DNA of 64,000 bases from Amphiura filiformis (taxonomy: Eukaryota; Echinodermata; Ophiuroidea; Amphilepidida; Amphiuridae). A model generated the notes under the pieces. That model ran no database searches, was not told the origin of the DNA, and worked only from the letters and a program-made list of their open reading frames with translations. Below are positions 11,691 through 50,332 of the stretch, one piece after another (position 1 is the stretch's first letter; each line of letters starts with the position of its first letter). The position numbers and the translations under genes are program-made. The stretch covers positions 41,173,726 to 41,237,725 of the forward strand of contig NC_092637.1 in NCBI RefSeq assembly GCF_039555335.1, written 5' to 3'.

Positions 11691-11691
11691 C

Positions 11692-13333: not shown

Positions 13334-13378
13334 ATCAGTTGTGTCCCACCCCTTGTATGAAGATATCATACTACCTTT
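13334..13378 (+). repeat. 45-base direct repeat, copy 1
   Basis: ATCAGTTGTGTCCCACCCCT... is identical at 14,111-14,155. This may mark ends of a decayed element of about 0.8 kb. Confidence 0.6.
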
Positions 13379-14110: not shown

Positions 14111-14155
14111 ATCAGTTGTGTCCCACCCCTTGTATGAAGATATCATACTACCTTT
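14111..14155 (+). repeat. 45-base direct repeat, copy 2
   Basis: Second copy of the repeat at 13,334-13,378, just downstream of the likely gene B poly(A) signal. Confidence 0.6.
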
Positions 14156-14203
14156 ATAGCTTATTTTATGTGTAACAAGATATATTTACAATGTCACTAA
14201 TCA

Positions 14204-14209
14204 TTTATT
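14204..14209 (-). other. Possible poly(A) signal of gene B
   Basis: Minus-strand AATAAA about 395 bases after the stop. If used, the 3' UTR would contain the palindromic element at 14,343-14,503. Sequence match only. Confidence 0.35.
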
Positions 14210-14342
14210 AAACCATATTTTAAAGTTTAAATGAGCAAAATATTATGCTATACAAAACTATTCTGTACATGATGATGTTTTCATGCGGGGAGAAATTGTC
14301 GTCACAATCCACTTTAAACTTGTTCACAACGCTAACGTTATT

Positions 14343-14503
14343 AGAGAGCTTGCGAAATGGAGTTACTTTAACTTTAACTTTAACGTCTAGAGGATTATAG
14401 AGGATTATGTATTCAAAACCACCTTGGTTTTGAATACATAATCCTCTATAATCCTCTAGACGATAAATTAAAGTTAAAAGTAACTTTCATTCTCAAACTC
14501 TCT
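14343..14503. mobile_element. Near-perfect palindromic MITE in predicted gene B 3' UTR
   Basis: Arms AGAGAG...TAACTTTAACGTCTAGAGGA and on to GTATTCAAAAC meet around CACCTTG. It is flanked by ATT on both sides, a 3-base target duplication. Transcribed, it would fold into a hairpin with arms of about 75 bases. Confidence 0.8.
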
Positions 14504-14601
14504 ATTATATCAAATAAGCGAAACTTACGGCAGCACTGTAAATTTGCCACGTTCAATTTATATAATTACATTCACATTTTTTCACATTTTGATCATCTAT
14601 T

Positions 14602-14926
14602 TCAATTTAACTTCTTCGTACTCTTCATTATCACCCCTTCATTACATCTAACGACTGATTCATTATCGTAGACAGCACTCTCTGTTGCAGGTTGCTCTTG
14701 TGTCTCATCCGCATGGCTTAGCCCGCCACCGATATCTTGGTAAATCGCTTCATCTTCGTCAGGATGGACCTTCATATCCTGGTATGTCGTGTCTCGTTCT
14801 TCTGGTTTATATTTCACGTAGCCACCTGATGACATCTGGATCTGGGCACTTGAAGAAACACCGGTTATGATATTTGACGGAACGTGACTCTTTTTCTTTG
14901 AATTATTCTTCGCTCTGCAGTTTGAT
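14602..14926 (-). CDS. Gene B exon 17: cytoplasmic tail with tyrosine motifs, stop
   Basis: 107 codons plus TGA. Tyrosines: GGYVKY (1059, 1062), TTYQDM (1071), AIYQDI (1085), AVYDNE (1109). YQDM fits a PI3K p85 SH2 site, YDNE a Grb2-type Y-x-N. YQDM-x10-YQDI is ITAM-like in spacing, but with Met at the first +3 position. No kinase or phosphatase sequence follows. Confidence 0.92.
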
Positions 14927-17900
14927 CTGTAAGTAAATAATTCAGTCGTTATTTGTTAATAAATTAAAAACAATATTACAATTATCATTTATAACATAAA
15001 AATAACTGACCTCATTTTCAATACCAGTAAGACAATCACAATCGCCATTAATGCGATCACGCATACAAACACTGCTGTCAGTATCATGTGTGCTCCTGGA
15101 CCTGTTAACAAGATATAAATGTATGAGAAATGTAAGGATCGTTATATTGCACGTTTTGTGGTGTACATGTGCATAATACACCGCAGAACCCCCACAACCC
15201 CCACAAGCTACACATACCCATCAGGTAACCATATGGGGAATTACTAACATTTATTCATATTTGCACTGCAAAAACTGTGTTTAGAGATTGAACACCTTTT
15301 TCCCCTCGATTTGTAAACACGTGTATTATCTAAACACCAATGTCGAACTTCAAAATATCAAGTGTTTAATATCTAAACTCAAGGCATCAAATTCCTAGAC
15401 ACGTTAAGCATTTAAATATGTTTACAAAAATCAAAGACACAGTGGTGTCTAGAATATTTATCCTATTAACAGTGTTTTGCAGTGTATGCGTGTATAGGGG
15501 GGAGGCTTTTTGGGACGTGAGCACATCAAATAAAAAGGGGGATAGTTCCTGGTTGCAGTAACGTCCATGGTTGGAATGCAAAGACTCATATTAACATCCG
15601 CACTTGCCAGCAAACACCTACGCACCCATTGGCGTAGCAAGAGCCTCGTGGCCCATGGACAAGGAGTAGTGCAGGTCCCTCTTTACATCATATTTATCAC
15701 CCCTCCCCCATTTTCGCTTTTGCTTGGGGCCCCAAACCCTCGGTCCAGTGGCGTTCCTCCACCCTGTCCACCAGCTTACTACGCCAAATGTACGCACCTT
15801 TTACACACACCCACAAACATAAAATGAAATCAAATATACCTTCTGTAGGGTTGGATTGGGATCTGGCACTCAATGATGCGAGCGTTACTTCGGTACCCTC
15901 GGACCAAGAGACCACGCGACGCTATGATGTAAGAACAGAGATAAGAAAATAATGAGTGAAAAAATGCAAGAAAGGGAGATACAAGTATCAGATTAAAATA
16001 GTTCAAATACACCAGACACAAAAAGAAACTCGTCAGTTATAGTCATCCTTGCTGTTCAACAACCTGATAATTTTGGATTATTCAGAAATATACATTTTGT
16101 TAATTGGACTTTGCATCTCATTTGACACACTGTTCGTGAAAATCGAGCACGAATTGAACAAGATATGCGCCTCCAAACCGTCAAACCCCAAAATCAAAAG
16201 TTGCAATTTCAACGATTTTCAATGGGAACACATCGTTGTATTGCACACAAGCACCACGGGCCAATCAAAAAAGCACACGATGTAACAGGCACAATTGAAT
16301 CTTTAAAATTGATTTTGGGGTTTGAGGGTTTGGACCGCATATCATGGTCAATTCTTGCTCGATATTCACGAACAGGATGTTAAATGGGACAGCAAAGTCA
16401 AATTACAAAATGTATATTTCAGAATAATCCAAAATTACAGGTTGTTATACAGCAAGGTTGACTATAACTGACGAGTTTCCTTTTGTGCCTGATGTAGATG
16501 CGGATTATAGCAATTAATGAAAGGAGGATGTACATGGATGAGGTGAGTCATTTAAGGGGGTACTGCACCCCTGCCCAATTTTGTGCCTATTTTTGCATTT
16601 TTCTCATAAATGATAGCGCATTGGTGACAAGTAAGATATGTATATTATAGGGGCAAGGACTACAACTACTGCACTGGAAATTTTATTTCAGCACAGACAA
16701 CAGTTGTGGAGTTACAGTCAAAAATGAGGAAAACCAATATTTGATCAATAAATCAATAACTACTTGCTTTGAGTTGCCGAAATTTCAGTGCAGTAGTTGT
16801 AGTCCTTGCCCTATAATATACATATCTTACTTGTCACCTATGCGCTATAATTTTTTAGAAACATGCAAAAATAGGCACAAAATTGGGCAGGGGTGCAGTA
16901 CCCCCTTAAAGAAAGAATACTATGAAACCGGAAAACAAAACTGATGAAAAAGAGAAAGAAAACAATGAGGACAAAGTGACGTATAGAAAGAAGTATAATG
17001 TATTTAAAGTGTAGAAATTAATACAATTTTTATTACAAAATACCGTGTCATTGATGCGGCTATAATATGCAATGTATACTCTGTACGTATTTCCATCATG
17101 TAGTGGTGGATTGTTGTATTCTCCATAAGTCTTTGCATCACCTATTACGAATCTGGAGCTCTTTTTCACATCTGCTTTTGGTAAGCTTGCAGCCACATAG
17201 GCAATATATATCGGTGAGTGTATCTTCTCCTGAAATGAAATTGCTCCCGAATTCTTCACATTGGTTTCCAACTCGACACCTACTTGATATCCACTGAGAA
17301 TATGAAAAAGTATACTAATTTTAGCGATGTGTCCTCCTTTAAACTAAAGCCCAAATGAAGACCAGAGCGCAAGAAGACCGTAAGTCCTATTTGGCATTTT
17401 GAGATATGATCGTTTAAACTTTTTAAAATAAGATAATTTGAAAGTAGAAAAAAGCTATAATATTGGTACATCTCAGGTACATGGGTATAGGCAAGAAGAA
17501 TCATTTTGTGTATCAACCAAGTAAATATCTGTAATATTGATCGATATTGATCGATTTATCATTTTTGGACTTACGGTCTTCTTGCGCTCGGATTGAAACA
17601 AAAGCTTATAACTCAAAACTGAATGCAGATGTTGGAAATATTTAACCATATTGGTAATCTATGTGAAAAGACGAGCAATTCGACACCTTGAATTGTAAGG
17701 TTGTTTAAAAATTTGACCTTAGTTGACCTTTAACCGGAAGTGACCCTCTAACTCATTAACCGAGCTCAAAATGTATGATAAATTATATATTTTCGTAATC
17801 GTTGTGATGAGACGAGTAATTTGACATGTTTCTTGACGACATTGGACAATTTTTCATTTTTACCCCTCTTGACCCCTCACGTGACCCCTATAGGGAGGGG

Positions 17901-20900
17901 GCCAATGTAAAAAAAAATGTCAAAATTTTTGTCTTCATCCAATAACTTCAAAACCATCTGCAACTCAATTTCGTCAAAAGTGGACTTGCAGTCGTATTGG
18001 AGGATGATGATGATAATGACCGTCATCATTATCATCATAATTAAATTGTATACAGGTTGATATATAAACATAATATAATATAAACACAAGATAAACAGTC
18101 TTCTGGATCTGCTGCACATTTTTGAGTGATTCTCGTTACCCAAAATGAAGCGTTTATACATAGCTTACCTGACGAACTCAGAAGAACTCACTGGAATTAG
18201 TATCTCAACAGTGGATGATGCTATTTGATTAGAAGTAATATCCGGTAAGGCAGTAGGCTTCGGAATATCTGTTTCATGTCACATAGAGATCAAATTTACA
18301 ATGTGTAGAGAGACAAATAAAAATCGTATCGAAGAAGAAGAGAATCTAAGAAATTCCAGTTATTACAACAAACTTTCTGATGGGGTGAAACACCCACACA
18401 CACGAAGTAATTATAGTTCCCTATAAACTTGAAAAATATGTCTTTATGTCTCAGTAAAGAGTAGAACTCATTTGATGAAGCTTTGCACAATATTGCAGTT
18501 CTGCATTTGCACGTGCTAGTATGCAACAAACAAGAAAATAATACACCGATACGAGGCAGATGAACACTTCTTTAAGGCATAATATGGTATGTTGCAGGGC
18601 AAATAATTATATTTTGTAAGGGATCAAAATGCTCATGTACCTTCAATTGTTGCAGGAGTGGTAAAAAGGAGGATGCTGGTATGGTCTCCTTTACCTTCAC
18701 CAGAGTAAGCGGCCACAAGCAATTTATACTTCGTAGACGGCTTGAGAGAGGAAAATGTGTACGTTCTCTGATCAGCATCAATCTCATCGTCAATAATGGG
18801 TTTTGAAGTCGACACAAAAGTTAAATCGTATGGCTTTTCAATAATTATTGCTTGCACCTGGAATATACAAATATATATTTCAAATGAACAAAGTAAGAAC
18901 CCTAAAATCCTCTTCATAAACAGTTTTCTCTATAACAAATTGCCAAAATGCAACAAGATGAAGTAATTACACCTTTAACAAGTAGTAAATGTGATTTTTA
19001 AGATAAATGATTGAAATCAATAAATCGATTATTAAAACTTAATTGGCATCACTAATCGTCAAACCATTTCGAAAATAATAAAATTGATGGTAATATTCCA
19101 CGTTTAACCTTACACGATCAAACCGTTAAAATGTATAATTTCAAATGGTATTTCTTTAAAAAATGAATCGTGTTTGCTTTGAAACTTACTGAATAAGCAA
19201 TGATGACCCCGTGTGGATATTGTGGTTCGATCCAAGTCACGTTTATTGAGTGTTTTGACACGTCATGTACTTGTAATAATCTTGGTGCACTTGGTACTTG
19301 AAATTAAAATAAATAAATGAATACAGAAATTAAAACTCATACTGATAAGGTAGTAGATACGTTAGCCCAGGCTCCCAGACAATGGATGAGATGGGGTGGT
19401 GGAAGCACTCAAGTTCACCTTACCGGGCCTTAGTGGGCCACTTTATGCCTCGCCTGACCCCTGCTCCCGTTTTTCTATCCCCAAATTGGGGCATAACTAT
19501 ACTAGTATATCCAACTCACTGGATATTTTGCAATTCACTCCACTTAGATTTGCACGCATTTCCTTTTAAAATATTTAAAAGAAAATAATATTTAAATGAA
19601 CATCTTTAAAGTAAAGGTAAATATGGAAATAACAATAAATAACGTTACATACATATTTCAAATACTTTATTAGATAACTGCAATTATATACAAAATACAG
19701 AGAACGCACAATAAAGCTCGCAGAGCAGGCGGCAAATTCAAAGTCTAATTACATGCAAAAAGTGAGAAACCATGGAAAACACATAAAAAGCAAAAACTTT
19801 AAACCATGGCGATGAGTAAACCCATAGCCATGCAAGCAAATGACAACAAGAAGGGCGAAAACAAATTAGCGCTGTGCATTGACCGCGCCAACACGCATTT
19901 GCCACACAATTTTTGAGCCAATGCCAGCGCTGATGCTCAAATATTTAGCAATGGCTTTGCTCCTCCGGGTGTCAAACCCAAGTATTTTTAACCCAGGCAC
20001 CACGCTTTTGTGGACACACCCTGTAGAACCAATGATGATGATGACGATTTTGCATGAGTAATTTGTGTCGAGAGTGATCAGTTCACACAAAGGACTGTAA
20101 TACATAAATTTGGTATTCAACTATATATGCCCCTTTTAACTGTTCGTCAAGGATGAGTAAGTATTTGTATAGCGCATTTTACATAAAGATCAAGGCGCAT
20201 CTTCTACCTATATAAGGAATAACACATTAGGAGCTACATTCTACTTCAGTGCAACTGAGGTTAAGAAAAATGGTTACATTGTACCTACCAGCTTCGCTAG
20301 TTTTAATCGGTAATACAAAATATGGACCTGGACCAGATTCTGTGATCGCCGCAACTTTGAATATGTAGTCTGTGTATGGGTCCAGATTCCCTATCGTAAT
20401 ATCTTCAAAGTCCGTTGAGTTATTCTCTACTAAGGTGTCGCCGACGGTGTGAAGGACGTATGGATACGATTCTATTTCGCCATGCCTAGAGCCACAAGGA
20501 GGCAAAGACCACCGAAAACTGATGTGATTAGATGACACTTCGTATGCAGTTACATTTGTAGGTGGAAGTATTGGGGCTGTAGGTATCAAATGATGTAAAT
20601 AAAATTTTAGATGATCATCTTATGGATGTGCGCGATATATACAATATGTTTAGATAAAACATATTGAAAAGAAAGTTTACATTTTGACACAATTATTGTT
20701 ATGGTTATTTAGACGAGTGATGTCATTCCAATGTTATTTTAAACGTCTACTTCAGTCTGACAGGCATTTGTCAGAGGTTAGTAAGAACCAAAAAGAGACG
20801 TCTTTCCTGTATCCAAAAGAGGCAACTATGCATAGGTCTGGGAAATATATATATTTCGTACAAAAGTTTAACTAAGAGCATATGTTGCGACTCACATGCT

Positions 20901-23900
20901 GTATTAGTCGTTCCATTGACAAAGGCAGTTCTCCCATCTGTATTACCATTTGTGGCGCTTACTGATACTTCGTACGTCGAATGTGGTAACAACGTCTCTA
21001 TAATTGCTTCCCAGCCAGAACCTCTATACGAGAAAGGTCTCCAAACTTGAGGATTTTCAACGACCATCTCACACTGATCTTTGAGCAGTAGCTGAAACTG
21101 TATCGTGTAACCGGTCACACAATTGTTGTCTGATGCTAGTTGCCATGACACACGTAGCTCATTTGAAGAGGATTTGCCCTGCGCTTTTAACGAACTGACC
21201 TGTCCGGGATCTTAGTCAGATTGAAAATAACAGAAAATTCATCTGTATCATTACTATTATTATATTTTGGGATAGTGTGACTATGCAATGAAGTAGATTT
21301 AACTTCAGATGTTGATATACTTTCCAAAACAGTCAGCAGAATATGTTCATCAATAAACAACATAAATTAGCCATAAACGATGACAGGAAAACTTAAAGAC
21401 TCATATTTATATTTGATGTCAGGGATGTCGTCCACGTTGGAAGAAAACGGCCGCTACTGGGTCTCAACCGTATTGGCTCTGTGGATCATTGGAACGGGCA
21501 TCAATGTTTATTTAAAAATGTTAGTCAGTTACTTTGATAGGACATTAAGCTGTTAAGCTTTACAAAGACTTTTGCGTGAATACAAAATTGTTTAAAAACA
21601 ATTAATTTGCAAAGACAAAATAAATAATTCTTACTTATTGTTCTTGTTCTCCCCGTGATTAAATTAGACCAAGGTCCATCACCCGCGTCATTTGAGGCAC
21701 GTACGCGAAAGCGATACGCCGAACACTCAATCAGATTACTGATTGTTACGTTTGTAAAGGATGTTGCACCGTCAATTAATTTGTAATTAGCATCCAAAAG
21801 GTTGTATTTATATTGTAGTCCACCTCCATTAATCTGGCCGCACGGTACTGGCTTCCAGTTAAACGTAAGACCATTAAATGTTGTCTCAGTAGTAGCAGAT
21901 GGCATCAGTGATGTAAAAATTGGTTCTTGAAGAAATGCAAGAAAATATATGCATTCAAAACTAATCTTGAAATTTTTGAGTAACCCTAAACCCGTCCCCT
22001 CGAAATAACACAAATAAACATAAAAACCAACACTAAAAAAAACAACAACAAAACCAAAAACAACAACAACAACAAAAAAAACAAAAAAAACAACAAAAAA
22101 AACAACAACCAAAAACATAAAAACTCACAAAAAGAAAACAAATAAACAGCAGCAGCAACAACAACAACAACAACAACGACAAACAGCAAAATAAAACCCT
22201 TAAAACAAACAAACAACATAGAACCAATAACGTATCGTTTCAATTATTTAGGTGCTCCAAAGCCCATGGTGCGAAATGCGCTTTCTACCTAATATTGTTG
22301 TTATTATATTATTAATGTCAAATCAGTTTGAAAGAAGGATATATTAAAAAAGTATGAACGAAAATATATTATATTGATTTTCAATAAATAGTTTTACAGC
22401 ATTGTGTTAAGAATTTTAGGCAAAAAAGTATATTTTTCTAGATTTCTCAAAAATTCAAAAAAAAATGATACGGTATAAAATCTCCCCTACATACAAAATG
22501 CACGTGCTGTACACATATTCTTTTTAGCCTTTGTCAGTTTGTTCGGAGAGAGGATAATACCTGCATGGATTCAATCTTCATAGAATGATGAAAGTAGTGG
22601 ACTTATCATCGATCCCCGATTAACACTGCAAGTAAATATCTTAATTTTTCTGAGACAGGAATAGCTTTTATTAATTTGAGCAATACATGGTGCCCGGAAA
22701 CTACTATTGTTTATGTACTTTGTTTACTAAACGCCAAGTGGTTAAAGCTCTAAACTCTAGATTGAGTCATACAATATGAAAATACTCTAGAATCATACCA
22801 TCATATAAACTTCGAGCATTCAAGGAAGTTTCCGGCAATCAAAACATGCCTTATATGGAAGAAAAATAATTATTAAGCACGAATCACGCGGTTTTATTTA
22901 AAACAAACTCAACAAACAGTGACCATAAAAACGAATAACACGCGATATTCAAATTTCCCGGACGCCGAAATTGTCGAGTGCAATGCCGTTCAAGTAATAC
23001 AACGAAGGCTGACGACAATTAAGCACAAATAACCATTACGTCATTGCAGTTAGACAATTTCGGCGCGGGAAATGTGATATCGCGCGTTGAGAGGGGACTG
23101 TTTTTATTCGTTTTCATGGTCAATATGAGTTTGTTTTAAATAAAACCATGTGATTCGTGCTTGATTATTTTATAACATATAAGGCATAATATTATGATTG
23201 CCGGAGTCTTATTTTAAACTAATGGTTGATTTTTTTAGTAACAGCACAGCCGATTCTAGTAAAGGACCTGATTCTATGCAGCTAACTAACCAGCTTGCTG
23301 AGTCGTTACATCCATGGACAGCGTTGGACCTGACCGCAAATTATGTCGACTTGTTACTGAAATCATGTACGTCGAATGAGAGACCAGATTTGGAATTGTA
23401 GCTTCCGAACTTGTGGTAGTTAAGGTATGTATATCATCAGCCCGTTCATCACATTGATCCAGATTAGTCAATCTAAATTCCACCAAGTAGTCTATGACAT
23501 TGGAGCAAGGACTCGGGTCTGGATCCCATTGCAGTTGCACAGAGATTTGGTTCGAAATAGACTGCATATTTGTAATCATTTGTGGATCTGAATAATAGAT
23601 TTAAGAATGATAAATCAAATATCGTTATTATTCAGGATAGAAGCTAGCAGTATTAATCATGTTAATGCGCCAATCACTAACTGTAATACATACCCTAACA
23701 GTAATTAAAAAAAAAAACCCTGTTGCACTAAAAACCAACATAAATTAAACAAGGGATTTGGATGACCATCCCTCGTGCTCATTTTACAAAGTGCTCCTAT
23801 TAAAACTATATCGACAGTACTGGCTGGGAACCCTATGTGTTTGCTCCAATAGTTTATTATTTCTATTCAAAGCTAAACACCAGATGAAAACGGCATGTTT

Positions 23901-26900
23901 AGCCATTTTATTTTAAACTTCGTGTACTTATTTTAATATCAATGAACAAAGAGACCATAATACCGACCCCAGGGTACCAACTGCAGGCACACAATGCACG
24001 ATTTTCAATCAGAAGAAGCACCCCTGTTGGTTAATGACGTGGCCTAAACGAACTGCTAATACGTGGTTAAAAGGAACAGAAATAAGAAATTATATAATTA
24101 TCTCTTCCTACCTGGGCAGCGCTCTTCCAACATTAAGCAGGTGTAATGAAAAGGAAGCAAAAGAAAACAGAACGAACACATGATTAACAATATGGTTTTA
24201 AACTGTCACCCTAACATAGACAATATAATGAGGAGAATTTTAAAACAAATCTTGGATATCAGAGTCGTGGCAACGTATGGTCCATTGACGAAAGACGGAT
24301 CTAAAATTAAAACTTCATCAACAACAGCAGCAGTTGCGCACAATAGACCCTTGACTATAAAATCACGTTCTTGTGTATATTTCCCTTATGTTCCCTTTAT
24401 AGTGGACGGACTCAGATACGGCATTACTACAATTGGGAATTCTGCATTAATGTCATACAAACCCCAGTATTAAATTTGGTAAATAAACCGAATAAAATCT
24501 TTGAAGGAAAATGCCTATTGATTGACAGATAAAGTATAAGGCTTTTCCAATTGGTAGCATTATGTTTATCAGTTGAAGTCGACTCCAAGCGAGTTCTATT
24601 ATAGTTAAGTCAAAAACCTCAATTTGGTGACCACTCTCTGGCTAGTAAGGTTTGACGACTGATTCGACTTCTATGGACCATTTAGAAATAAAATAGCCTC
24701 CATGTCCCTCGCGAAAATCCCGGCATTTTTCGCTAGAGGCCAAAATCAAAATGGCCGCCGCCACCATTTTGAAAATTTAAGTTTTGAACCAGAGCACCTA
24801 TAATCATGCACAAAGACACTTTTACGGATATGTCGAGTACAAGGATTCCGATTTTGACATTAGTTTGACATTACGGCATCATTTTCACCCAGAAATCAAG
24901 CACCATCTTGAAAAATTTAGATTTTTCAAAATGGTGGCGGCAGCTATTTTGGATTTTGGCCTCCAGCGAAAAATTCCGGGATTTTCGCGAGGGACATGGA
25001 GGCTATTTTTTTTTCTAAATGGTCCATAGAAGTCGAATCTATCGTCAATCCTTATTAGCCAGAGAGTGGTCACCAAATTCAGGTGTTTGACTTAACTATT
25101 ACCTTGACAATTCACCCCATACCAGTCTGGATGACACCTATTCCATCTACATATTCCCGTGTGTATGGATCACAGGTAACATCGTCAGCACAATGACATA
25201 CGGACCTGCAACTGGCTCCATAGAAACCTTCTTGACAATCTATACAAAATCAAGAGAATTGCTTGCACATTGGTAAGAAAATGCACTCATTAGAGAATGA
25301 ATTTGGAGAAAACCTTCTGATAATTACAAACACTCGCAAAGCAGCAAGACCTTCCCTCTAAGCTTTTAATCCGATAAGCTGATTATCTATTTGTTTTCAC
25401 GAATTGGAAGACATTCTTTGATGTATTACTGAGCTGGTGGCTCAGCATAGTATTTTATTAACAGAAGGTATTCTCCAAATTCGTTTCCTAATGTATACAT
25501 TGCTCCTTGTTTGGTGCAACTCATGTCATGAAACAAAATCATAATACTGCGCCGCTCAACATTTGTATATTAATATTTCTGTTTGCAAATAGGCACGTTA
25601 TTCACTCTCTATTGACGATCAGTATTCAAATGAGTGGAAACAAAACACATTAATTAATTACGATAATGCGGGCTTATAAAAGCTATGATGCGTTTACAAA
25701 CATGTTTCGCCACACAATTGTATCGCTTGAAATTGTAACGAAATTAACCGTAAACACGAAACGAGGTGTGTAAATAGAACCCGTCCGCACGTACGAGACG
25801 TACTACTTTGTCGCCGGACGGGCTATGTTCCTAACCAGCCTTTCCGACGAACGTCCTGACGGATGCCACTAAAGCGAATAGTCACACACCGACCGCCGAA
25901 ATACCATGACAGAATTGTTTATCTTTTGTTTGGCATTTTTAGGCCACAATTATTCTTATTTTGGCCCATTTTAGCATTAAAATACACATTGCAAATTTTT
26001 GCGCGCTTCAATCACGCACGACCCGGTAAAGTCATTTTAGTAGCGGGTCAACGGGAAATTTTGCACCTTGGAAATGTAGTCCACTGGTAACTAGCACCTA
26101 GGCACTAAGACAGCGCCCGAACACCAATACATCAAAACCAAATTTACACAAAACATATTGATATGTTACGTTCAGGCCGGACGGTTAACTTTTAGGAACA
26201 GCCTGTCATGCGGTTGCTTTTTGGCTGAATTTTACACACTGGTGATGGGTACGCCTTTTAGCAGCGTTAGAAACTGAAATTATTGAATTCAACTTTATTT
26301 AATTAGCTTCAACAAAAGATTTTCCTCTTAATACAAAGTCATAATTAATTAGTATAAAGGAATTGGTTAAGACGATTAGACGAGGTTGCTTTACTTATTG
26401 AAAATAAGAGTAAACTTACTTAAATTACAGTCTATACCACGATACCCTGACCCACATGAACACCCGTATGGATGAGGTAGACAAAACATACGCCCTCTAC
26501 ACGCATCTTGATTCACACTAGAACAGATGAGTTGCCAATCTTGACCCCAGTGATTACGTCCGTGAGCTGCTTCAAGAAAAATGCGGTATTATTTGATTGT
26601 AATGTCTGATATAAAAGCGGATAGTTTGAATGCAATACAAACATATTATTGGTTCGCTAATAAGACTTTTTGAAATATTGGGTGAGACACTTGCATTGAA
26701 CGCAATATTAAACAAAATCAAGGTAAAACCATTTATTATGATTTACATCTTCTACTGTTAGGTATGTAAATGGGTAACAGGACCGTTTTCCTGTAAAATG
26801 AGCTGAAGCTTATTTCATGGGGACCCATGCATGATATAATACTGCAGCAGCCCCCAAAACACGATTTTTTAGTTTAAATGAACTAATTTTATATTCATAC

Positions 26901-29900
26901 AAAGACAGAGTGCTCGAAAAAAACACGTTTGACCGACCAAATCGGATTTTATACGTAAAACCTGACCGTGTCTGTGTTAAAGTTACACCCTGTCGATTTT
27001 TTAGTAGTCACAATAGTCCCTAAAAGTGGCAGGAATAAATCACCAGGATTGGCCGTTAAAAACAAGTTGTTGCACTGTTTGCCTTCAATTTTGCTCCTTC
27101 CATAATTACATATTACTCTCTCACATCGTCGTACAAATAATTTTAATCTTATTTCAATATTGATGAATAAATTTCAAATTATCGTTTTGTCGTAAACAAT
27201 TAGTCTAATATTTTAAAGGGAATCATACGACCGGTCCTAAATAAAATTGAGGAAAATATATGAAGGATCTGCTGTTGCCTAGTATCGAAAGAGTGTTCTC
27301 GCATCTCTGTATAAGTTTACTATCTGCCAAGAATAATAATGCTGCTTGTTTACTCTATTTAGACTCTGTCAAGAAACATTAATCTGATCATTGGTTCAGT
27401 GGCGTAGATTTCTTTTTGACATTGGGGGGATGAAGTTGGAAGAAAATCTTGAAGTATAGTCAATCCAGCACCCTTTGGCGACAGAATTAGTTTATGATAT
27501 AAATGCGAGTGAAGCGGGCGAAAATTTTTTGCTATTTTGAAGCTAAACTGATGAAATATGGTGTAAAAGTAGATTAAATGCGCACGAAGCGCGCAAAAAT
27601 TTGCACTTTTGGGGCTAAAATGGGCAAATATGAGGTTAATTTGGTCAGAAACCCATTATCAGGCGTCAACATTGGGGGGGATGATTGTATGGACCATCCC
27701 CCCCTGGCAAAATATTGGGGGGGGATAAATCCCCCATCCCCCCGGATCTACGCCTATGCATTGGTTTACGGTTATTAGTAAGTAGTAGTGTAACCACATG
27801 TCCTGTGTGTGAATACTTTCCTGTTTGACAATATTCGCCACTGAATCCTGGTGCGCAAACACATTCACCTGAACGTTCATCACAAACTCCTCCGTTGTAA
27901 CAGCGAGGACAATCAAACTCACAACTATTACCCCATCTTCCCGCTGTACAAGCTGAAAAGGATAGATTAAGTTATGGAGGTGAAACCGTTAGAGGAAATG
28001 CAGGTCTCATGTAGAATATTACATCATTGACAAAGCTTGATTTATGTGATGGAACTGTTGCGTATATTACAAGATGTCTTACAAGATTTGCTTTATGGCA
28101 ACACATTTTAAGCAGTGACGGTAATATCTATGTATTTTGCTGGGTCATGTTTGATCTTCACTAAAGTCTTCTGGGATTGTTCTTGTAACCCGCGAGTTTT
28201 ATTCCATTTCCATGAGGATTTGTGAAATTTTTACCCAAAATATAACATTTTAACAAGTTATTTCTTTAAAACTAAATGGAGTAGAATTTTCATATTTGAT
28301 AAGCAGAACACGTGGAACATGGGTATTTAATATCTATGAACAAAATTATCACTTATTTCAACATATTTATGTGTGAAAAATTTGATTTATGTGTGAAAAA
28401 TGGCTCTTTGGGTCTAAAAAGTCAATCACAATAATTTTCTTTGACTCTTGAAATTCAGAAGTAGGCATAAAATGCACGTTTCTAGTAATGGTCATTTTGG
28501 CCCAAAGTTAACCCTTTTCACTACATTTAGCAATTTATTGCATTACAAAATTTGGCATTACCCTTTATATATATTAATGATATACAGGTTTTTTTTTTCA
28601 TTTTAAACTATTAGGAGAATTCAAAGAAACGACTCTTCTGAACATTTTGATAATGTTTGATTATTTTGAAACATTTGCCATACAAAATCGTTAAAAGGAG
28701 CACTTTTGGCTGCATTGCTTGTATACTGAATTTTAACATGTCCATAGCATATATACTTGTATTTCTTTTTCCACAAAATATTATTAGTTTTTACTGAGTT
28801 AAAGCAAAAAACAAAATCGCAACTTAATTCCAGCGCCGATGTCGCTAACGACTTCGTCAATCGCGACTGAGGCCGGTCCTGATAATGCGTTATAACCGTT
28901 TAATGTGCTATGTGCGTACATTTTTTATTATCAACATCGCGAATTAGTTGTTACAAGCTGTTTTTAAAATGAATTTTGTCACAAGTACATCACATAAATA
29001 CATGAATTTTGCAGGGTATGTTAGTTCATTAATCTTCGAAAAACTGTATTATTTTTTATTTGTTATGTGCTGTGATACCAATTTTAGTTTCCAATTTAAC
29101 GCCATGCTCAAGAAACACTTAACTTATCAACCGATAAACGGGATTTACTGGAAATCCATTTCTAGCTTTCTAGCTTGTTCTAGCTTTGGGGCGTTATATG
29201 CTACATTAGTGGAACTAATGTATTTTGACATTACACCTCAAATAATAAAACTAGATTTTTTTTTTCTATAATGCAAATGATGCAAATTTTGAGCTGTTGA
29301 ATCAATATTTTATTCACATAATTATGATTTTAGCACAAATCAATAATAAATCAAACTTTCCCAATTATATAACCTGTTTTTATTAATTGTTACTGATAAA
29401 ACCTTAAATATCGCAGGGTAAAAACAATGTAATACGTAAGAAATATAAAACATGCGTTTGCATAGGCAAAAACCGAGAGGGTTTTTGAACGCCCACATAT
29501 TTGGAACCAAACGTCCGATTGGAATCAAATAAAAAGCAAATTAAAGCTAAAATTGCAAATTATTTTATAAAAGAATAATCTAAAAATGCTCATTTTAGCT
29601 ATTTGTACTGATTCTTCTTGCCTGGGTTACTTTAAATTTTCTTATCGACACACATAAAAAACGAATGACATATTGAACAATTTTCGCTGGCAATACACGT
29701 GTGGGTCTCTATTATAAAATACATTAGTCTCCACGGCAGCCAGTTTGGTTCCGCTCCTCCACACAAACAGTCTGCCAATGGCCACTTATAACGCCGTTTC
29801 TGATTGGCTACACGTATGTAGCTGTAGAGCTGTACATACGGGAATTTGATTGACCTCAGTCAGCTGGCGAGATGGCGGGTTAAAATTGCTCATGAATAAT

Positions 29901-30424
29901 TAAGTAGCCGTCTAGCCGATCGACCAATTGAAAGCTTTGTTTGACGTCAAGCTGGATGACGTCGTCAGAAAACCGTTAGCCAATCAAAAGGACCAGTTCG
30001 TCATCATTGGCAGACTGTTTGTGTGGAGGGAGCGTAACCAAACTGGCTGCGAAGGAGACTAAAATTACATTATCACATGCGCCATTTTATCAAACTAACC
30101 TCGTACAACAAGTTGGAAAATTGCGTGTTTGCCATTTCTATTGTTTAATTCAGCGCATTCATAAACACCAGCATCATCGACTGTAACACTCGGGATAGTA
30201 ACACTTTTCTTATTGCTCCAATCAGGACAGGTTCTCTCGCCATTGCATTTCACGCTATTATGCCACCATCTCAATTGAGTCCACGGTGTGGTCATTGTGA
30301 ACGTCACAGACTCACTAATGCTCACTGTTTGCGAAATGTCGTGAGGAGTAACTCTGCCTGAAACAAATATATATTGAGGAAAGAGGAAAAAGTGGTAATA
30401 ATATTCATAAATATGATGATGAGA

Positions 30425-30469
<45 letters not shown>

Positions 30470-33400
30470 TATAATAATAATAATAATATAAAGGATAATA
30501 ATAATATAAATGTAAAAATAATTATGTTGTAGCTATATTGATGCAGGGAATATTGGATTTATTTACATTTATTTAATTTTTTTTCTCACACTCTTATATT
30601 GTTCTTACTATTTTGTGACATAATAATAATTGTTATCAATTCCGTTTTCAAGTTTTTCCTTGCTTCACAATAAAATGCACCGATTCGATTAAGGCCTTCT
30701 GACGCAGGCATACGATGCAGTACAGCAGTGTTGCCAATGCGATCTTCTGAACCAAAAGGTAATCCATTCCCTGTCTTTGTATAAGAAGTTCGTCCAAACG
30801 ATATCGTTGCGTCAGTGTCATCACCACTTCTGTAACCTCCGATGAACATGTCATCGTCATCATTTACTCGAGTGTCGTTACCAAAGCAGGTGACATCCAA
30901 AATACAGTACGTTTCTTTCAAAAAAAAAAAAACAAGACATCGATAACAACAGGCAATGTATAAAATTAAAAAAACATATAATTGTATAGTCAATCAAAAC
31001 AGCTGAAAGAGTGCTCGATACTGTTTGATAGTAGAGCGTGTAATAAAATACACAAACAACGTAATAACGTTATTAAAGTTTTATTCAGATTTCCTTTGAC
31101 AGCTAAAGGCCCGGTCACAATATGACGGCCGATAACCTACGAAAGGTGACGAACGTGAAAATCACAAAATGTTGACGGCAAAGCGAAACAAGAAAAACAA
31201 GATTCGCTGACGAATGGGAACGACCTTCAACGACAACACGGCGGCAAGGGACGAAAGGCTGCGGCAGGAAACGGAGACTAGCGACCAAAAATGGACGTTG
31301 TCTGGGCGGCGAGTGACGATGTCTCGACGGAGCCGACAACAAGCAACGAGGTCAGACGGCTAGCAGCGGATTTGCTTGCGGCAAGGAACGGCAGCTGACG
31401 GTGGATTGCGGCGATGATGACGTGACTCAGCGGCCGACATCAAAGCATGTGTGTGCGGGTCGTATAGTCCACTTTGAGGTTCCCACTAAATATTAGCATC
31501 AATATCAATAATAATCAAAAATATTAACATCAATATCAACAATAATCAAAAATGTTAAAATCAATATCAATAATAATCCAAGCTATTAATATCTATATCA
31601 ATAATAATCAAAATATTAACATCAATATCAATAATAATCAAAAATATTAACATCAATATCAATAATAATAAAAAATATTACACATATCAATAATAATAAT
31701 AACAAAAATTAACATACATAGGCCTATCAGTAATAATCAAAAAAGTAAAATCAATATCAATAATAGTCCAAACTATTAATATCTATATGTAATTATCAAT
31801 AATAATCACAAATATTAACATCAATATCAATAATAATAAAAAAATATTACACATAACAATGATAATAAAAAAGATTAACATACATATCAGTAATAATAAA
31901 AAAAAGTAAAATCAATATCAATTATAGTCCAAACTATTAATAGCTATATCAATAATAATCACAAATATTAACATCAATATCAATAATAATCAAAAATATC
32001 ACACATATCAATAATAATATTAAAAAATATTACACATATCAATAATAATTTTAAACAGTTAATATACATATCAATAATAATCAAAATATTAAAATCAATA
32101 TCAATAATAATCCAAACTATTATATCAATATCAATAATAATCAAAAATATTAACATCAATATATCAATAATGATCAAAATATTATCATCAATATCAATAA
32201 TAATCAAAAATATAAATATCAGTATCAAAATAATCCAAAATATTAACATCAATATCAATAATAATTAAATATCAATATCAATAATAATCAAAATATTAAC
32301 ATCAATATCAATATCAATAATAATCAAAATATTAATATTTTGATTATTATTGATATTCTTTATACGAACTTCAAAATTGCATCGTGCCGGACAGTCTATT
32401 GAAATCGAACTGACGTCAAAAAATGTCAAAAATCGCACAAAAAGTTTAAAATTGTGGACCATCGTTTAAAAATTGTAACCCATCGCAGACCACCGTTTCA
32501 ATGCCGCAGGTACTCGCAAACGACCCGCCATCAACAGTCAACATCCGTCACCCTCCGGACAACATTCGCAAGTCACTGTCGCACCAAGATCGTTACAATT
32601 TTGTTACTTGCCACAATGTGTCGCCAGGGTTTGAGATGTGACGTCACTTGCCGTTGTTTTTTCGTCAATGGTCGTTGACAACGATTACCAACGAAATTGT
32701 GACGACCTCAAAACGACAAAAGACGGCTTCGCACGGTATGAAAACGTCAACAAAATGTGAGTTGTGGTCTCCAACGAAAATCGCAACTACTTCTTTTGCC
32801 GTCACAAAATTTTCAACATGTTGAAAATTTGCCGACGAACGCGACGAATAATTTCGGCCGTCTGCGGTCGCTAACGAATTCGTCAGCGCCAACTAACGGC
32901 AACACACGATGAGTGACGGTAAATTCAAAATTGCAATTCGCAGATTAACGTTGCTTGCCGTTCACTCCTATTCGTCATAGTGTGACCGGGCCTTTACGAG
33001 CGCGACGTCAAGCGTGTGCATTGGACGTTGTGCAAATAATACGCACTGGACGGCTAGCAGTACGTTTAATTTGTAAAAGGAAATCTGAATAAAACTTTAC
33101 AGCATGATTTGTTACTCGGAGTGTCCCGCCCCAACGGCGGTCATCAGATGAAATAATTGCTGCTGGATTCAGAATTCAACAGCAATTATTGGTGTGATAT
33201 CATGAAAATTTGACAATAAGCATAATGCATATTAACGAATTGATCGGACAAGAACGAAATTTTAGGGTAGTTGGGTAAAACATGATTCCCTTAACATTTC
33301 GTTGTACTCTCGCGTTGGAATGTCTTTCCGCTCCCCCTATAACCGCAGAAAATGTTAAATTGTAATGATACTACAAATGGAAAACGTATCAAACCTATAA

Positions 33401-36056
33401 ATAGGGATGACCAATGAACCATCAACTTGATTAGAACACTCCCATAGACATGCAGTGAGCTCAACTGACATTTCTAAATTGAGCTCATTCTTTTATTTTT
33501 CATAATTTTTCTGTAAAAATTGGAGATGTTAATGCCAATTATGTTTTGTAACTATCCTGCAAATTACAGCATCATAACTTATTTGTTTTTTCTGTAAGTG
33601 TGAGTCAAAATTGGTACATCGCCACAGTGCGCTTAATTCCAGTGGCCCAGTGCAGCACTGCTCAGAATGGCACAAAATATTCAGATGAATAAGATCAGGT
33701 GAACACCTTGACCTACTGAGCTGTAATTTGGCAGACTTGTCGGTATTACCTCTATCATACCCTATGTAAAAAGGTTAAAAAAATGGACAAGTAGATCTCG
33801 AGTTAAAAATTAAATACCAGCTTCCCTTTTGAATTTCCAAACACCTTTCGAATCATGTTAAATAGACACCTTTCTGAACATAAATGTGAAGTTTCGTGCT
33901 CCACGGTTGTTTGATGGCATGTAAACTGTAGTAATTTTTAAGAAAAAGCGAACAATGATGGCGCTATTTATCTTAAATATTGTTTGCATCTTTAGAAGGG
34001 GTAGACACTTGTATAATTGCATTTAGAACATCAGAAAAAAGAATAACAAGTAGCAAGGAAATTTTCAAAAAACCTTCTATCATGAAATGTAAAGAATAAC
34101 AATTATTTGGCTAATCTAAATTTAACATGTATGTAAATAGCGCCCTCAATTTCCTCACAAATGTGCAGTTTATAGTATAAAAATTACCACAGAAAAGGAG
34201 AAAAAGGTGAATAATTTTACATAGAAACAAGAATCTATTTTTTTAAATAGCTATAAAAATATATGTGTATATTTAAGTGCGATAACTGTTGGTATTGTCC
34301 AGGTCTAGAATGTTTTGTTAGAAAAATTAATAAATGATCACATCAAACAACCGTGGCTCATTTGTTGTATTATTCACCTGATATCAACCCTAAACATTTT
34401 CTTATATTTATACCATCTGCACTGACTTGCTGCTATACACGCACAGGAGCTGTACTTTTAAAATACGCGCCTAATCAATAATGAGTCTTTCACTCCATTG
34501 TTAAAGTACTGTGCTCCCTGTAGCATATGGAGTGACCAGGCCCTGGAGTGTGATGGTTTTGTAGCATATGACAGTATTCATTCAAGCCTATCAAGGTCAG
34601 TTATTAGCCACTTGCTGAATGGCTGGGCATTATCAGCTATCAAAGAGATACCTTATGCTGCTGCCAATCACAATAGAGGTTAAACATTTTGTTAAAACCC
34701 CAGAAGTGATATCAGGACAAAGCTGTGCATGTTGGTACTTGATTGTTTGGATTCCTATGTTGAAAGTCCCTTGTAGTACATTAGTATTTTTCTTATGTGT
34801 AGTGTATATTGTTGTGGAAAAAAAGTTCAGCTGGACTTTTGATTTTGTGCCACTTTGGCCATTATGGATGATTTTTGGCAAATGTTTTCTAAAAGCATGA
34901 TTTCAGTGCCTCGGTTTGAAGAAATACTTAATGCTATTGACTAGTAAAGTGCCATTTCATAAGAAACCCCTTTGATACTTTCACAATATGCTTGTTTCAT
35001 GTTTGCATATATATTAAAATAAAGAAATATAAAAAGGTAAATATATGCTTATACCAATTTTGCTCACATATATATATTTAGACTTTGTCAATTTATTTCG
35101 TTCCAATGACCGGTCAGAATGGGAAACTTTGAAAATTCATAATTCGAAAAGTTTTTGACCGATTTTGACCATTTAACCACCAAAATACTTCTGTTGATGA
35201 GTTCTTTCCAGAAAACAATCTTTTGTAGCAATAGGGGCAACATGAAATTATGATGGTCATCCCTACTATAAACCCTTAATCAATAATAGTCATAATTGCA
35301 GGAACCTGGAACCATCATTTATTACAAAAGGAAAAAAATGAAAAAATAAATCCTTATTTTTCGGTAAATTACACAATAAAATTCCATTGAAAAAAGTGGC
35401 GGCGCTGTTTAATGAGGCTTATTATGACGTCACTACCCTGTTCCTATCAAAAAGTTATCATGATTGACTTGCAGTTATCCCGACTGCACTGCTGGTTATC
35501 ATCACAAATGTTTGATACAAACGCTATTTGGGTTGGGTTGTTATTATTATCTTGGTGTTTTTGTTTTTTTTTCGGCCGTCCAGATTTCGGGCGATTGTCC
35601 ATTGAGCCATGAATCTCCTTTTTCTCAAATTATATGCAACAGATCCCTCGTCAATATTCAATAATCTTGCAATTAGATGTTCCTTCACTATGATATGCTT
35701 CTATCATTCCCTTCTGGTGATCGGTAAATTGTGGCATTTTGAGCCTGATCTGATTGTCAAATCTGTGCAATTTTTAGTCTGAAATTCATCACTATCGGCA
35801 ACATCGCAGTTTTGTATCCAAATTCACATCCTCTGTTATTTTAGAATTGTACAATGACAATCAAAAACTACAACGAACAAGAATTCTTTAAAATAAATTT
35901 GACATGATATTAAACTATCGCTATCCTGCCATTGTGCATTATAGAAATCGGACATGCCTCTTTGGTATACTTGTTGGAAATTACAAATAATAAAATACAC
36001 TTACCAGATACAATCTGAAACAGTATTCCCAATTTGAGGAATACATCCAGCGACAT
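14602..36056 (-). CDS. Gene B: Tie-like Ig/EGF/FN3 receptor with RPTP-like membrane-proximal domain and short tyrosine tail
   Basis: Seventeen exons give 1,130 residues once the EGF3 frameshift is ignored. Layout: signal peptide 1-17, Ig1 about 19-119, Ig2 121-205, EGF1 207-249, EGF2 251-298, EGF3 300-343, six FN3 domains about 345-965, WSEGTEV stalk, membrane segment about 998-1020, tail 1021-1130. The N-terminal module is Tie-like. The last FN3 plus stalk resembles the membrane-proximal region of receptor tyrosine phosphatases. It should be a type I plasma-membrane receptor; the ligand is unknown, and an angiopoietin/fibrinogen-domain ligand is only a guess. No catalytic domain lies between its tail and gene C. 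Tyr1071 (YQDM) and Tyr1085 (YQDI) form an ITAM-like pair. A 2-base insertion in EGF3 makes the reading frame end early, so it may be a recent pseudogene, a null allele or a sequence error. Confidence 0.88.
15011..15101 (-). CDS. Gene B exon 16: transmembrane segment
   Basis: GPGAHMILTAVFVCVIALMA, then IVIVLLVLKM: about 23 hydrophobic residues followed by a basic stop-transfer sequence continuing in the next exon (RSNCRAKNNSKKK). Confidence 0.93.
15840..15921 (-). CDS. Gene B exon 15: extracellular stalk
   Basis: RRVVSWSEGTEVTLASLSAR plus SQSNPTE, 27 codons linking the last FN3 to the membrane exon. Phases 0 and 1 fit both neighbours exactly. Confidence 0.85.
16012..16492. mobile_element. MITE in gene B intron, stalk/FN3-6
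   Basis: Inverted ends with AAACTCGTCAGTTATAGTCA, followed by GTTATT/AACAACCTG over about 90 bases. No coding content. Confidence 0.7.
16556..16905. mobile_element. 350-base MITE with TTAA target duplication
   Basis: GGGGGTACTGCACCCCTGCC and its inverse, flanked by TTAA at 16,552-16,555 and 16,906-16,909, as for piggyBac/Kolobok-type elements. A decayed relative lies at 62,620-62,893. Confidence 0.8.
17044..17293 (-). CDS. Gene B exon 14: RPTP-type membrane-proximal domain
   Basis: IYIAYVAASLPKADV, FVIGDAKTYGEYNNPPLHDG and YRVYIAYYSRINDT. GD.KTY..Y.N.PL followed by YRVY is characteristic of the last extracellular domain of receptor tyrosine phosphatases. Phase 2 to 0. Confidence 0.92.
18169..18268 (-). 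CDS. Gene B exon 13: membrane-proximal FN3, first part
   Basis: DIPKPTALPDITSNQIASST, then VEILIPVSSSEF, which with the next exon gives SGYQVGVE, the RPTP 'P.......ISSYQV.VE' strand pattern. Phase 1 to 2; found from phase and splice sites. Confidence 0.85.
18641..18857 (-). CDS. Gene B exon 12: FN3 domain 5, second half
   Basis: YTFSSLKPSTKYKLLVAAYS and GEGKGDHTSILLFTT complete the FN3 fold. Phase 0 to 1, donor gtacat. Confidence 0.9.
19190..19296 (-). CDS. Gene B exon 11: FN3 domain 5, first half
   Basis: VPSAPRLLQVHDVSKHSINV, then TWIEPQYPHGVIIAYS: strands A to C of an FN3 domain. Ends in phase 0, so this domain is split by an intron. Confidence 0.9.
19866..20110 (-). mobile_element. Retrotransposon-like C-terminal fragment in gene B intron
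   Basis: Minus-strand frame with CKIVIIIIGSTGCVHKSVVP, then IAKYLSISAGIGSKIVW resembles the tail of non-LTR retrotransposon polyproteins. Identification is from pattern memory; the family is uncertain. Confidence 0.4.
20289..20576 (-). CDS. Gene B exon 10: FN3 domain 4
   Basis: SPILPPTNVTAYEVSSNHIS, FRWSLPPCGSRHGEI and LDPYTDYIFKVAAITESGPG. Phase 1 to 1. Confidence 0.93.
20896..21210 (-). CDS. Gene B exon 9: FN3 domain 3
   Basis: NPGQVSSLKAQGKSSSNELR, VSWQLASDNNCVTGYTIQF and LLPHSTYEVSVSATNGN: FN3 strands B, C and F. Phase 1 to 1. Confidence 0.92.
21635..21925 (-). CDS. Gene B exon 8: FN3 domain 2
   Basis: EPIFTSLMPSATTETTFNGL, TFNWKPVPCGQ and YRFRVRASNDAGDGPWS, a textbook FN3 F-G region. 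Phase 1 to 1. Confidence 0.92.
22020..22205 (+). repeat. AAC-rich low-complexity tract
   Basis: Runs of AACAACAAC and AAAACAAAAA just upstream of FN3-2. Long valine/phenylalanine or leucine ORFs on the other strand are artefacts of it. Confidence 0.9.
22831..23206. mobile_element. MITE in gene B intron after FN3-1 (same insertion as in gene C)
   Basis: Same inverted repeats as 117-568, with a single inner segment, about 85 bases from the FN3-1 donor as in gene C. The shared insertion predates the tandem duplication. Confidence 0.75.
23291..23587 (-). CDS. Gene B exon 7: FN3 domain 1
   Basis: DPQMITNMQSISNQISVQLQ, WDPDPSPC and TIPNLVSHSTYMISV: FN3 strand B Trp and the L-x-x-x-T-x-Y motif. 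Phase 1 to 1; the same length (297) as the gene C exon. Confidence 0.92.
24602..25098. mobile_element. MITE inserted into the 5' splice site of gene B EGF3
   Basis: Ends TAGTTAAGTCAAA and TTTGACTTAACTA, with about 190-base inverted arms containing TGGTGACCACTCTCTGGC. Flanking TTA (24,599-24,601 and 25,099-25,101) is the target duplication. The right TTA is bases +2 to +4 of the EGF3 donor. Confidence 0.85.
25103..25239 (-). CDS. Gene B exon 6: EGF-like domain 3, frameshifted
   Basis: NCQEGFYGASCRSVCHCADD is normal, then an extra GT dinucleotide (25,159-25,164 has three units against two in gene C) shifts the frame and leads to TGA inside the exon. The lost frame would continue to CHPDWYGVNCQ. 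Length is 137 against 135 in gene C. The donor gtaata is partly rebuilt by a MITE target duplication. Confidence 0.88.
26420..26566 (-). CDS. Gene B exon 5: Tie-type EGF-like domain 2
   Basis: HGRNHWGQDWQLIC, then CRGRMFCLPHPYGCSCGSG and YRGIDCNL. The FCLP.PYGCSC.(S/T)G pattern is a hallmark of the second EGF repeat of vertebrate Tie1/Tie2. Phase 1 to 1. Confidence 0.95.
27395..27770. mobile_element. Short G-rich transposon-like element in gene B intron
   Basis: Ends TGGCGTAGAT...GGGGGGATG and CCCCCCGGATCTACGCC are imperfect inverted repeats. The interior has AAATGCGCACGAAGCGCGCA words common to dispersed elements. Confidence 0.45.
27815..27820 (-). other. Predicted non-canonical GA 5' splice site (gene B, EGF1)
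   Basis: The exon ends ACAG and the intron starts GAAAGT. This matches the AG|GTRAGT consensus except for A at +2. The nearest GT (three bases on) would put EGF2 out of frame with an early stop. Gene C has the same arrangement. Confidence 0.5.
27821..27952 (-). CDS. Gene B exon 4: EGF-like domain 1
   Basis: ACTAGRWGNSCEFDCPRCYN, then GGVCDERSGECVCAPGFSG: a complete EGF-like domain. The downstream exon needs phase 1, which places the border before GAAAGT, a GA rather than GT donor. Confidence 0.85.
29725..30061. mobile_element. MITE just inside the Ig2-EGF1 intron of gene B
   Basis: Inverted ends TAGTCTCCACGGCAGCCAGT / TTGGTTCCGCTCC and CACACAAACAGTCTGCCAATG. It begins about 38 bases after the Ig2 donor. 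Confidence 0.7.
30100..30357 (-). CDS. Gene B exon 3: Ig-like domain 2
   Basis: VTPHDISQTVSISESVTFTM, LRWWHNSVKCNG and DDAGVYECAELN: Ig B, C and F strands with Trp and DxGxYxC. Phase 1 to 1, donor gttagt. Confidence 0.92.
30427..30505 (+). repeat. AAT microsatellite upstream of Ig2, gene B
   Basis: (AAT)n about 70 bases from the Ig2 acceptor, at the same position as 6,558-6,775 in gene C but shorter. Confidence 0.93.
30609..30914 (-). CDS. Gene B exon 2: Ig-like domain 1
   Basis: 102 codons from ETYCILDVTCFGNDTRV to GAFYCEARK...IIIMSQN. The paired cysteines and the GxxYxCEx..xxIxI ending resemble an N-terminal Ig domain of Tie receptors. Phase 1 to 1, donor gtaaga. Confidence 0.85.
31104..32996. 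mobile_element. Non-autonomous DNA transposon carrying a minisatellite
   Basis: Terminal repeats TAAAGGCCCGGTCACAATAT and its near-exact inverse at the other end. The interior has GACGG/CGACGA-rich arms and the 31,490-32,345 minisatellite. No transposase ORF. Confidence 0.75.
31490..32345 (+). repeat. About 30-base AT-rich minisatellite
   Basis: Some 25-28 units of the type ATCAATATCAATAATAATCA plus AAAATATTAAC, with base changes and small deletions. Isoleucine/aspartate-rich ORFs here are artefacts. Confidence 0.9.
36005..36056 (-). CDS. Gene B exon 1: signal peptide
   Basis: ATG at 36,054-36,056 gives MSLDVFLKLGILFQIVS, a short hydrophobic signal sequence, then donor gtaagt in phase 1. 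An in-frame TAA lies 24 bases upstream, fixing the start. Gene C has an identical peptide at 8,840-8,891. Confidence 0.85.
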
Positions 36057-36486
36057 GTTGTCAGCAGCATAGACAAGTTAGTTATAAATAAAAGTTCTAT
36101 ATACCATAAAGTCTTGTTTCTAGAATCACATCGTCGTATTAACATTATCGAAAGTATTAGATCTAAACAGAATATAAGGAAGTAGTGACTTTATAGCAGG
36201 AGCTGTCAATGGCTATCAATCAATCATTCGAAAATGAAAGTCTTTACTTTGTTCAAAAATACAACAAGAAACAAAATTTATAATAAATAAACATTTAAAT
36301 GAGGAGATGCTCAAAAGGCCATAATTTATCTATACAATAAAGACATACACACATTCATACCCGTAAGAGTGACGGTAATGGTCTAAATTTACGTACAAAA
36401 CGACGCGACGTTATGGGGTTTTTGACGTTAAGTGGGAATCCCTAAACGTTCGTATCTACGGGTAGTTCTACAAATACCCTCCTAAT

Positions 36487-36812
36487 GTTAGAGATCTTAA
36501 AAACCATTAAAATTCATGATATTTATAAAATACAACTTTCATCATTTATGTTTCAATTTCACCATGACCTTTTACCTACTGACCTCATTGAAAGTGATTT
36601 TTTTTAAAGTGCAAACACTGTCCCACCATTATGACACTAGACACGCTCACGACCCATTTATTGAACCGTCCAATACTGTTCTGGCAAGCAATACATCCCG
36701 TTCACAAGGTCCATTGGTCTGGAATAGTCTAATTTCAAACATAAAAGATTCCAGTTCTCTAGCCTCATTTAAATATCGTATGAAAAAAAAACCTCATCGG
36801 TTGTTATAGCTA
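36487..36812 (+). mobile_element. Remnant of non-LTR retrotransposon reverse transcriptase (3' end)
   Basis: Translation shows LEILKTIKIHDIYKIQLSSF, MFQFHHDLLP and, after a frame change near the T8 run, YDTRHAHDPF, GPLVWNSLISNIKDSSSL and FKYRMKKK. This is the usual C-terminus of CR1/L2-like polyproteins. Broken by a frameshift. Confidence 0.65.
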
Positions 36813-50324: not shown

Positions 50325-50332
50325 TAAAAAGA

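Follow-up and report, generated by a model that had tools for sequence, protein, structure and literature searches.

A candidate enzyme-free receptor with a Tie-type head and an RPTP-type membrane-proximal domain in Amphiura filiformis

Tie receptors carry kinases, and receptor tyrosine phosphatases (RPTPs) remove phosphate. The vertebrate RPTP VE-PTP acts on Tie2, and for this reason a link between the two families is functionally interesting. Sea urchin (SpTie1/2; PMC12113024) and oyster (PMC4883820) are reported to have Tie kinases, and candidate surface proteins of starfish coelomocytes include both a kinase similar to Tie-2 and a protein similar to RPTP-F (PMC13409769). No Tie/RPTP chimera is named among the titles and abstract openings listed in literature searches, which mainly covered papers outside subscription journals.

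We analysed a stretch of 64,000 bases of the Amphiura filiformis genome (below, the window; G+C content 35%). On its minus strand, a receptor gene extends from the ATG at 36056 to a stop codon ending at 14602. Its predicted product contains a signal peptide, two Ig-like domains, three EGF-like domains, six FN3 domains (FN1 to FN6), one transmembrane helix and a cytoplasmic tail. A partial copy of this gene (gene A; 8891-653, minus strand) is situated downstream, with the remainder past the window start. The cytoplasmic part of a tandem-domain RPTP (gene C; 62562-52709, minus strand) lies upstream. We consider it slightly more probable than not that the receptor gene encodes an enzyme-free single-pass receptor, with a Tie-type head, a six-FN3 stalk whose last domain is of the RPTP type, a transmembrane helix and a tyrosine-bearing tail, produced from joined phase-1 modules. 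The join of the Tie-type head to the RPTP-type membrane-proximal FN3 domain is in itself well supported at the level of sequence by the comparisons described below. Searches of the window for other elements gave no tRNA and no Rfam match at the gathering score. In a search for relatives, 17 pattern matches in bacterial and archaeal contigs and 7 in viral contigs were obtained, none of which was confirmed.

Structure of the receptor gene

Exon ends were set by splice consensus and phase. The resulting model has 18 coding exons, or 17, as given in the initial annotation, when a 12-nt mini-exon is left uncounted; the strand, the exon order and both gene ends also coincide with those given there. 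AG is found at all 17 acceptors and GT at all donors but one (16 of 17), which shows only that a consistent set exists, because the ends were picked by these very rules. The phases are compatible at all junctions except the one after EGF3, and the model without EGF3 has an open frame of 1089 residues.

Exon 1 (36005..36056, phase 0-1), recognized by its translation and ending in the donor CTG/GTAAGT, contains the start codon and the signal peptide (MSLDVFLKLGILFQIVS) and has a counterpart in gene A. The intron between the signal peptide and Ig1 contains a tandem array of 27 copies of a 31-base A+T-rich unit (31488-32335). The head is encoded by the phase 1-1 exons of Ig1 (30609..30914, 306 nt, 83% identical to gene A), Ig2 (30100..30357, 258 nt), EGF1 (27821..27952, 132 nt) and EGF2 (26420..26566, 147 nt), followed by the exon of EGF3 (25103..25239, 137 nt). 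An alternative Ig1 donor at 30590 was dropped, as it breaks the phase; the donor at 30609 is GTAAGA and is conserved in gene A. The mini-exon (24112..24123, 12 nt; AGCGCTGCCCAG, ERCP) is a predicted one, conserved in gene A together with its donor CAG/GTAGGA.

Each of the first four FN3 domains occupies a single exon: 23291..23587 (phase 1-1 by frame, 83% identical to gene A), 21635..21925, 20896..21210 and 20289..20576. The fifth is split between 19190..19296 and 18641..18857, and the sixth, membrane-proximal domain between 18169..18268 and 17044..17293. The exons of the first five domains are supported by frame and Pfam, the first part of the sixth by frame, and its second part by matches to Fn3_PTPRU, PTP_tm and RPTP-mu. 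These are followed by an extracellular juxtamembrane exon (15840..15921, placed by frame), the transmembrane exon (15011..15101, Kyte-Doolittle) and the exon of the cytoplasmic tail with the stop codon (14602..14926), all on the minus strand.

The transmembrane helix follows the last FN3 domain and has a 21-residue Kyte-Doolittle mean of 3.35; the second highest value, 1.51, belongs to the signal peptide region. Five tyrosines are present in the 108-residue tail, in YVKY, YQDM, YQDI and YDNE. YxxM is a docking form for PI3K and YxN one for Grb2; we take YQDM to fit the former type and YDN the latter. Read by eye, the tail contains no ITAM (YxxI/L-x6-12-YxxI/L), the first motif of YQDM-x10-YQDI having M.

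Neither a kinase nor a phosphatase domain was found by Pfam in the receptor protein (E<=1) or in the three minus frames of 8892-14601 and 14602-36056 (E<=0.1). Pfam thus supports the absence of both enzymes, already proposed from the initial reading, for the protein, its introns and the region towards gene A. The unspliced scans recovered the FN3 exons and, weakly, Ig2, but neither Ig1 nor the EGF exons, and short exons could therefore escape them.

The FN3 stalk and the neighbouring phosphatase gene

Pfam recognizes five fn3 stretches in the 1089-residue model. The sixth FN3 domain matches Fn3_PTPRU (31.4 bits, cut-off 24.7) and PTP_tm (31.3 bits, cut-off 26.3). With the fragment from FN6 to the tail alone, Fn3_PTPRU scores 33.8 bits, and PTP_tm, at 25.5, narrowly misses its cut-off; with unspliced DNA, the scores are 28.9 and 21.2, the latter again under the cut-off. 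Among PDB sequences, the fragment from FN6 to the membrane matches RPTP-mu (E=3.3e-5), and the weaker matches, nanobodies (0.51 and weaker) and RPTP-delta (0.85), are at chance level. The motif GDAKTYGEYNNPPL...YRVY, which the initial annotation had called diagnostic of RPTPs, is indeed present in the last FN3 domain (17293-17044). The RPTP likeness of this domain is borne out by the two Pfam families above cut-off in the whole model and by RPTP-mu; "diagnostic" is too strong a word for the motif.

The complete FN3 array has LAR as its best PDB match (2.9e-21), and RPTP-mu matches it over query residues 270-625 (6.6e-18). Further matches of the array and its halves are titin, integrin beta-4, contactins and ROS, and thus the RPTP assignment of FN1-FN5 is weak. 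Tie2 is absent among the listed PDB matches of the array; PDB does contain Tie2 FN3 chains. Judged by these matches, the sixth FN3 domain is of the RPTP type, and the family of FN1-FN5 is left open.

R2B RPTPs (RPTP-mu, kappa, T, U) share with the receptor the membrane-proximal FN3 domain with GD-x-KTY-x-x-Y-x-N-x-PL, and the FN array of RPTP-mu is colinear with that of the receptor over the residues given above. However, the receptor has no phosphatase domain and has a Tie-type head, and the MAM domain of R2B is absent from its Pfam matches at E<=1. The LAR-type RPTPs (RPTPF, D, S), whose member LAR is the top PDB match of the array, differ in the same two respects, the phosphatase and the Tie-like Ig/EGF head. 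LAR-type RPTPs usually have a longer array than the six FN3 domains of the receptor. In R3 RPTPs, most FN3 domains are encoded by one exon between phase-1 introns and others have an internal phase-0 intron (PMC5336234). FN1-FN4 and FN5 of the receptor fit these two patterns, whereas FN6, by its exon lengths, does not.

Gene C confirms the proposal that an RPTP gene is the neighbour of the receptor gene. It contains two stretches of Y_phosphatase (412.6 bits, Pfam), and its best PDB match is LAR (3.8e-122), followed by RPTP-S, PTPRE (5.6e-114) and PTPRA; one small exon of the first phosphatase domain (D1) was not located. D1 contains WPD and HCSAGVGRTG. The second domain (D2) has HCIDGVGASC across a splice junction (53554-53549 and 53288-53265, minus strand), with A at the position of the catalytic arginine, and thus is probably inactive. 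The C-terminus (52834-52712, minus strand) contains YENL, YANV and YANV. RPTP-alpha has a C-terminal YANF too.

The proximity of gene C brings in a possible, though less likely, explanation, that the receptor is an RPTP without its phosphatase. RPTPs of this lineage would already have had Tie-type heads, gene C would be a full-length one, and the receptor gene would be its truncated paralogue producing a decoy or a dimer partner. The last FN3 domain resembles those of RPTPs, the FN array does so with less clarity, and gene C is situated upstream on the same strand. However, the three minus frames of 62563-64000, up to the window end, contain no Pfam domain, and thus the ectodomain of gene C seems to lie outside the window. 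Further, tblastn of the receptor protein against the gene C region yielded nothing significant (best E=0.78).

The second copy and two irregular exons

From the signal peptide through FN1, gene A has the same exon order and phases as the receptor gene. Its exons, all on the minus strand, are the signal peptide exon equivalent to exon 1 (8891-8840), Ig1 (7810-7505), Ig2 (6492-6232), EGF1 (5341-5210), EGF2 (4669-4523), EGF3 (2336-2202), the mini-exon (1564-1553) and FN1 (949-653). Between the last two there is an FN1-like fragment (1238-1158, minus strand; 52% over 27 residues, E=0.08), which may be a chance match.

Comparison of the two copies over 435 codons, with the mini-exon left out, gives dN 0.103, dS 0.274 and dN/dS 0.38. 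Individual exons give ratios between 0 (signal peptide, 17 codons) and 0.95 (EGF2, 48 codons, with 1.5 synonymous and 5.5 nonsynonymous differences), and with such small numbers of codons and differences these single-exon values are weak. In a neutral simulation of the open frame of the receptor gene at half of dS, the mean number of stop codons was 16 and no run was free of stops (0/1000); at 0.05 and 0.02 per site, the stop-free runs were 4/1000 and 72/1000, respectively. As about 16 stops are expected under neutrality and the frame is open, the receptor gene seems to have been constrained during most of the time since the duplication. A very recent loss may be compatible with the simulation.

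The first irregularity is the donor site of EGF1. In the receptor gene, the frame with EGF2 requires the junction ACAG/GAAAGT (27820-27821), and gene A has GAG/GAAAGT at the equivalent place (5209-5210). The GA donor is the sole frame-keeping choice among the EGF1 donors examined; the GT donor AAA/GTATTC was rejected, being in phase 2 against a phase-1 acceptor. With the GA junction, gene A aligns to Tie2 with no gap at this place. Hence the intron after EGF1 is a candidate conserved GA-AG intron common to both copies. Introns with GA donors are rare. They are common in a copepod, in which AG precedes the junction and intron position 3 is nearly always A (PMC5714493). The sites of both copies conform to this pattern.

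The second irregularity is in EGF3. Compared to the 135 nt of the open gene A exon, the exon in the receptor gene contains an extra CA, which shifts the frame and results in an in-frame stop. Since EGF3 in gene A is in phase 1-1, skipping of this exon preserves the frame. Judging by the sequence, the receptor gene would either need EGF3 skipping or produce a truncated protein, or else the difference is a recent mutation or an assembly error. The receptor gene would yield a full receptor only by skipping EGF3, unless the species is not fixed for the 2-nt difference.

It is unlikely that the receptor gene is a pseudogene recently inactivated by this insertion, with gene A being the working receptor. 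The stop in EGF3 and the open EGF3 of gene A agree with such an event, but the remaining exons have stayed open where neutrality since the duplication predicts the stops counted above, although a very recent loss would stay hidden from this count. Moreover, the overall dN/dS and the phase of EGF3, which allows for frame-preserving skipping, speak against it.

The Tie-type head and the proposed receptor

The head of the receptor gene without EGF3 is most similar to human Tie2 among PDB sequences (E=7.7e-32), the next different protein having E=8.9e-5. For the head of gene A with EGF3 and FN1, the E-values are 1.7e-43 for Tie2 and 1.4e-6 for the next match, and for EGF2-EGF3 of gene A alone, 2.2e-13 and 2e-7 for the next different protein. 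The alignment of gene A with Tie2 contains 34 identities in 112 positions of the Ig part and 57 in 134 of the EGF part. In the latter, 25 columns have a cysteine in at least one of the two sequences, and 21 of these agree; where EGF1 joins EGF2, gene A has H and G in place of two Tie2 cysteines.

The Ig domains are less clear. Ig1 of the receptor gene has no Pfam Ig match, Ig1 of gene A taken by itself gives no PDB hit at E<=10, and only the last part of it aligns to Tie2; thus Ig1 is labelled as an Ig domain mainly by position. Ig2 of the receptor gene is below the Pfam cut-offs (Ig_3, 21.3 bits, cut-off 30), and Ig2 of gene A is above one of them (I-set, 30.4 bits, cut-off 23.7). The initial count of two Ig, three EGF and six FN3 domains holds for order and number, with Ig1 lacking a Pfam match and EGF3 being frameshifted. 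With the same remark on EGF3, the Ig-Ig-EGF-EGF-EGF head is homologous to that of Tie2.

The head thus resembles that of the Tie1/Tie2 kinases in its Ig-Ig-EGF1-3 order, in the agreement of the EGF cysteine columns in gene A and in the EGF2 pattern FCLP-x-PYGCSC, the FCLPHPYGCSC noted initially being found in 26566-26420. It differs by the replaced cysteines, by the six FN3 domains, the last one being of the RPTP type, and by having neither a detected third Ig domain nor a kinase. In both copies, FN1 comes straight after the EGF exons and the mini-exon, and Pfam finds no third Ig domain in the three minus frames of 23588-25102 and 650-2201, a type of scan that missed Ig1 and the EGF exons too. 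The initial proposal that the gene combines ectodomain parts of both families stands for the head, where Tie2 is the best match by a wide margin, and for the last FN3 domain, where an RPTP is the best match; for FN1-FN5 the assignment is weak.

An origin from a Tie gene that lost its kinase and gained an RPTP-type membrane-proximal domain appears rather improbable. The clearly Tie-type head and the Tie kinases reported in sea urchin and oyster are what it could build on. Against it, Tie2 is not listed as a match of the FN array, neither copy shows a third Ig domain in the Pfam scans from EGF3 to FN1, and Pfam finds no kinase in the protein or in the minus frames of 8892-36056. Least probable is the merging in our model of two separate genes, for a secreted Ig/EGF protein and for an FN3/transmembrane protein: the stop in EGF3 would terminate a secreted head, but gene A repeats the head-FN1 join with conserved splice sites, the phases agree except at EGF3, including those from FN1 to the tail, and there is one signal peptide and one transmembrane helix, the only other strongly hydrophobic stretch being the signal peptide itself.

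Returning to the enzyme-free chimeric receptor, we suggest that it arose by joining of modules bounded by phase-1 introns. The head would bind an extracellular ligand, the tail tyrosines would be phosphorylated by an outside kinase and then dock SH2 proteins, and RPTPs such as the product of gene C could dephosphorylate them. Should the tail stay unphosphorylated, the receptor would be a decoy for the Tie or RPTP ligand. If this reading is true, the gene would illustrate how phase-1 exon shuffling transfers receptor heads from one signalling family to an opposing one, and would offer a testable case of a decoy or docking co-receptor for the Tie ligand.

More tentatively, the locus may represent a class of enzyme-free receptors that combine the angiopoietin-receptor head of Tie with a stalk of the RPTP type and a tail for phosphotyrosine docking, tandemly duplicated beside an RPTP gene. 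FN2-FN6, the transmembrane helix and the tail joined to a head are seen in the receptor gene alone. Should such a class exist, the ligand of the Tie head would gain a third output beside kinase and phosphatase.

The region between the receptor gene and gene C (36057-52711) has four Pfam matches in six frames at E<=0.1, all below their own cut-offs. The window also contains several long repeats. A segment of about 1.57 kb occurs twice (46560-48124 and 48400-49964), with 97.5% identity between the copies, and each copy contains inverted matches some 880 bases long. Long self-pairing inverted repeats resembling foldback elements are situated at 16008-16496, 16551-16910, 60165-60778 and 61660-62203.
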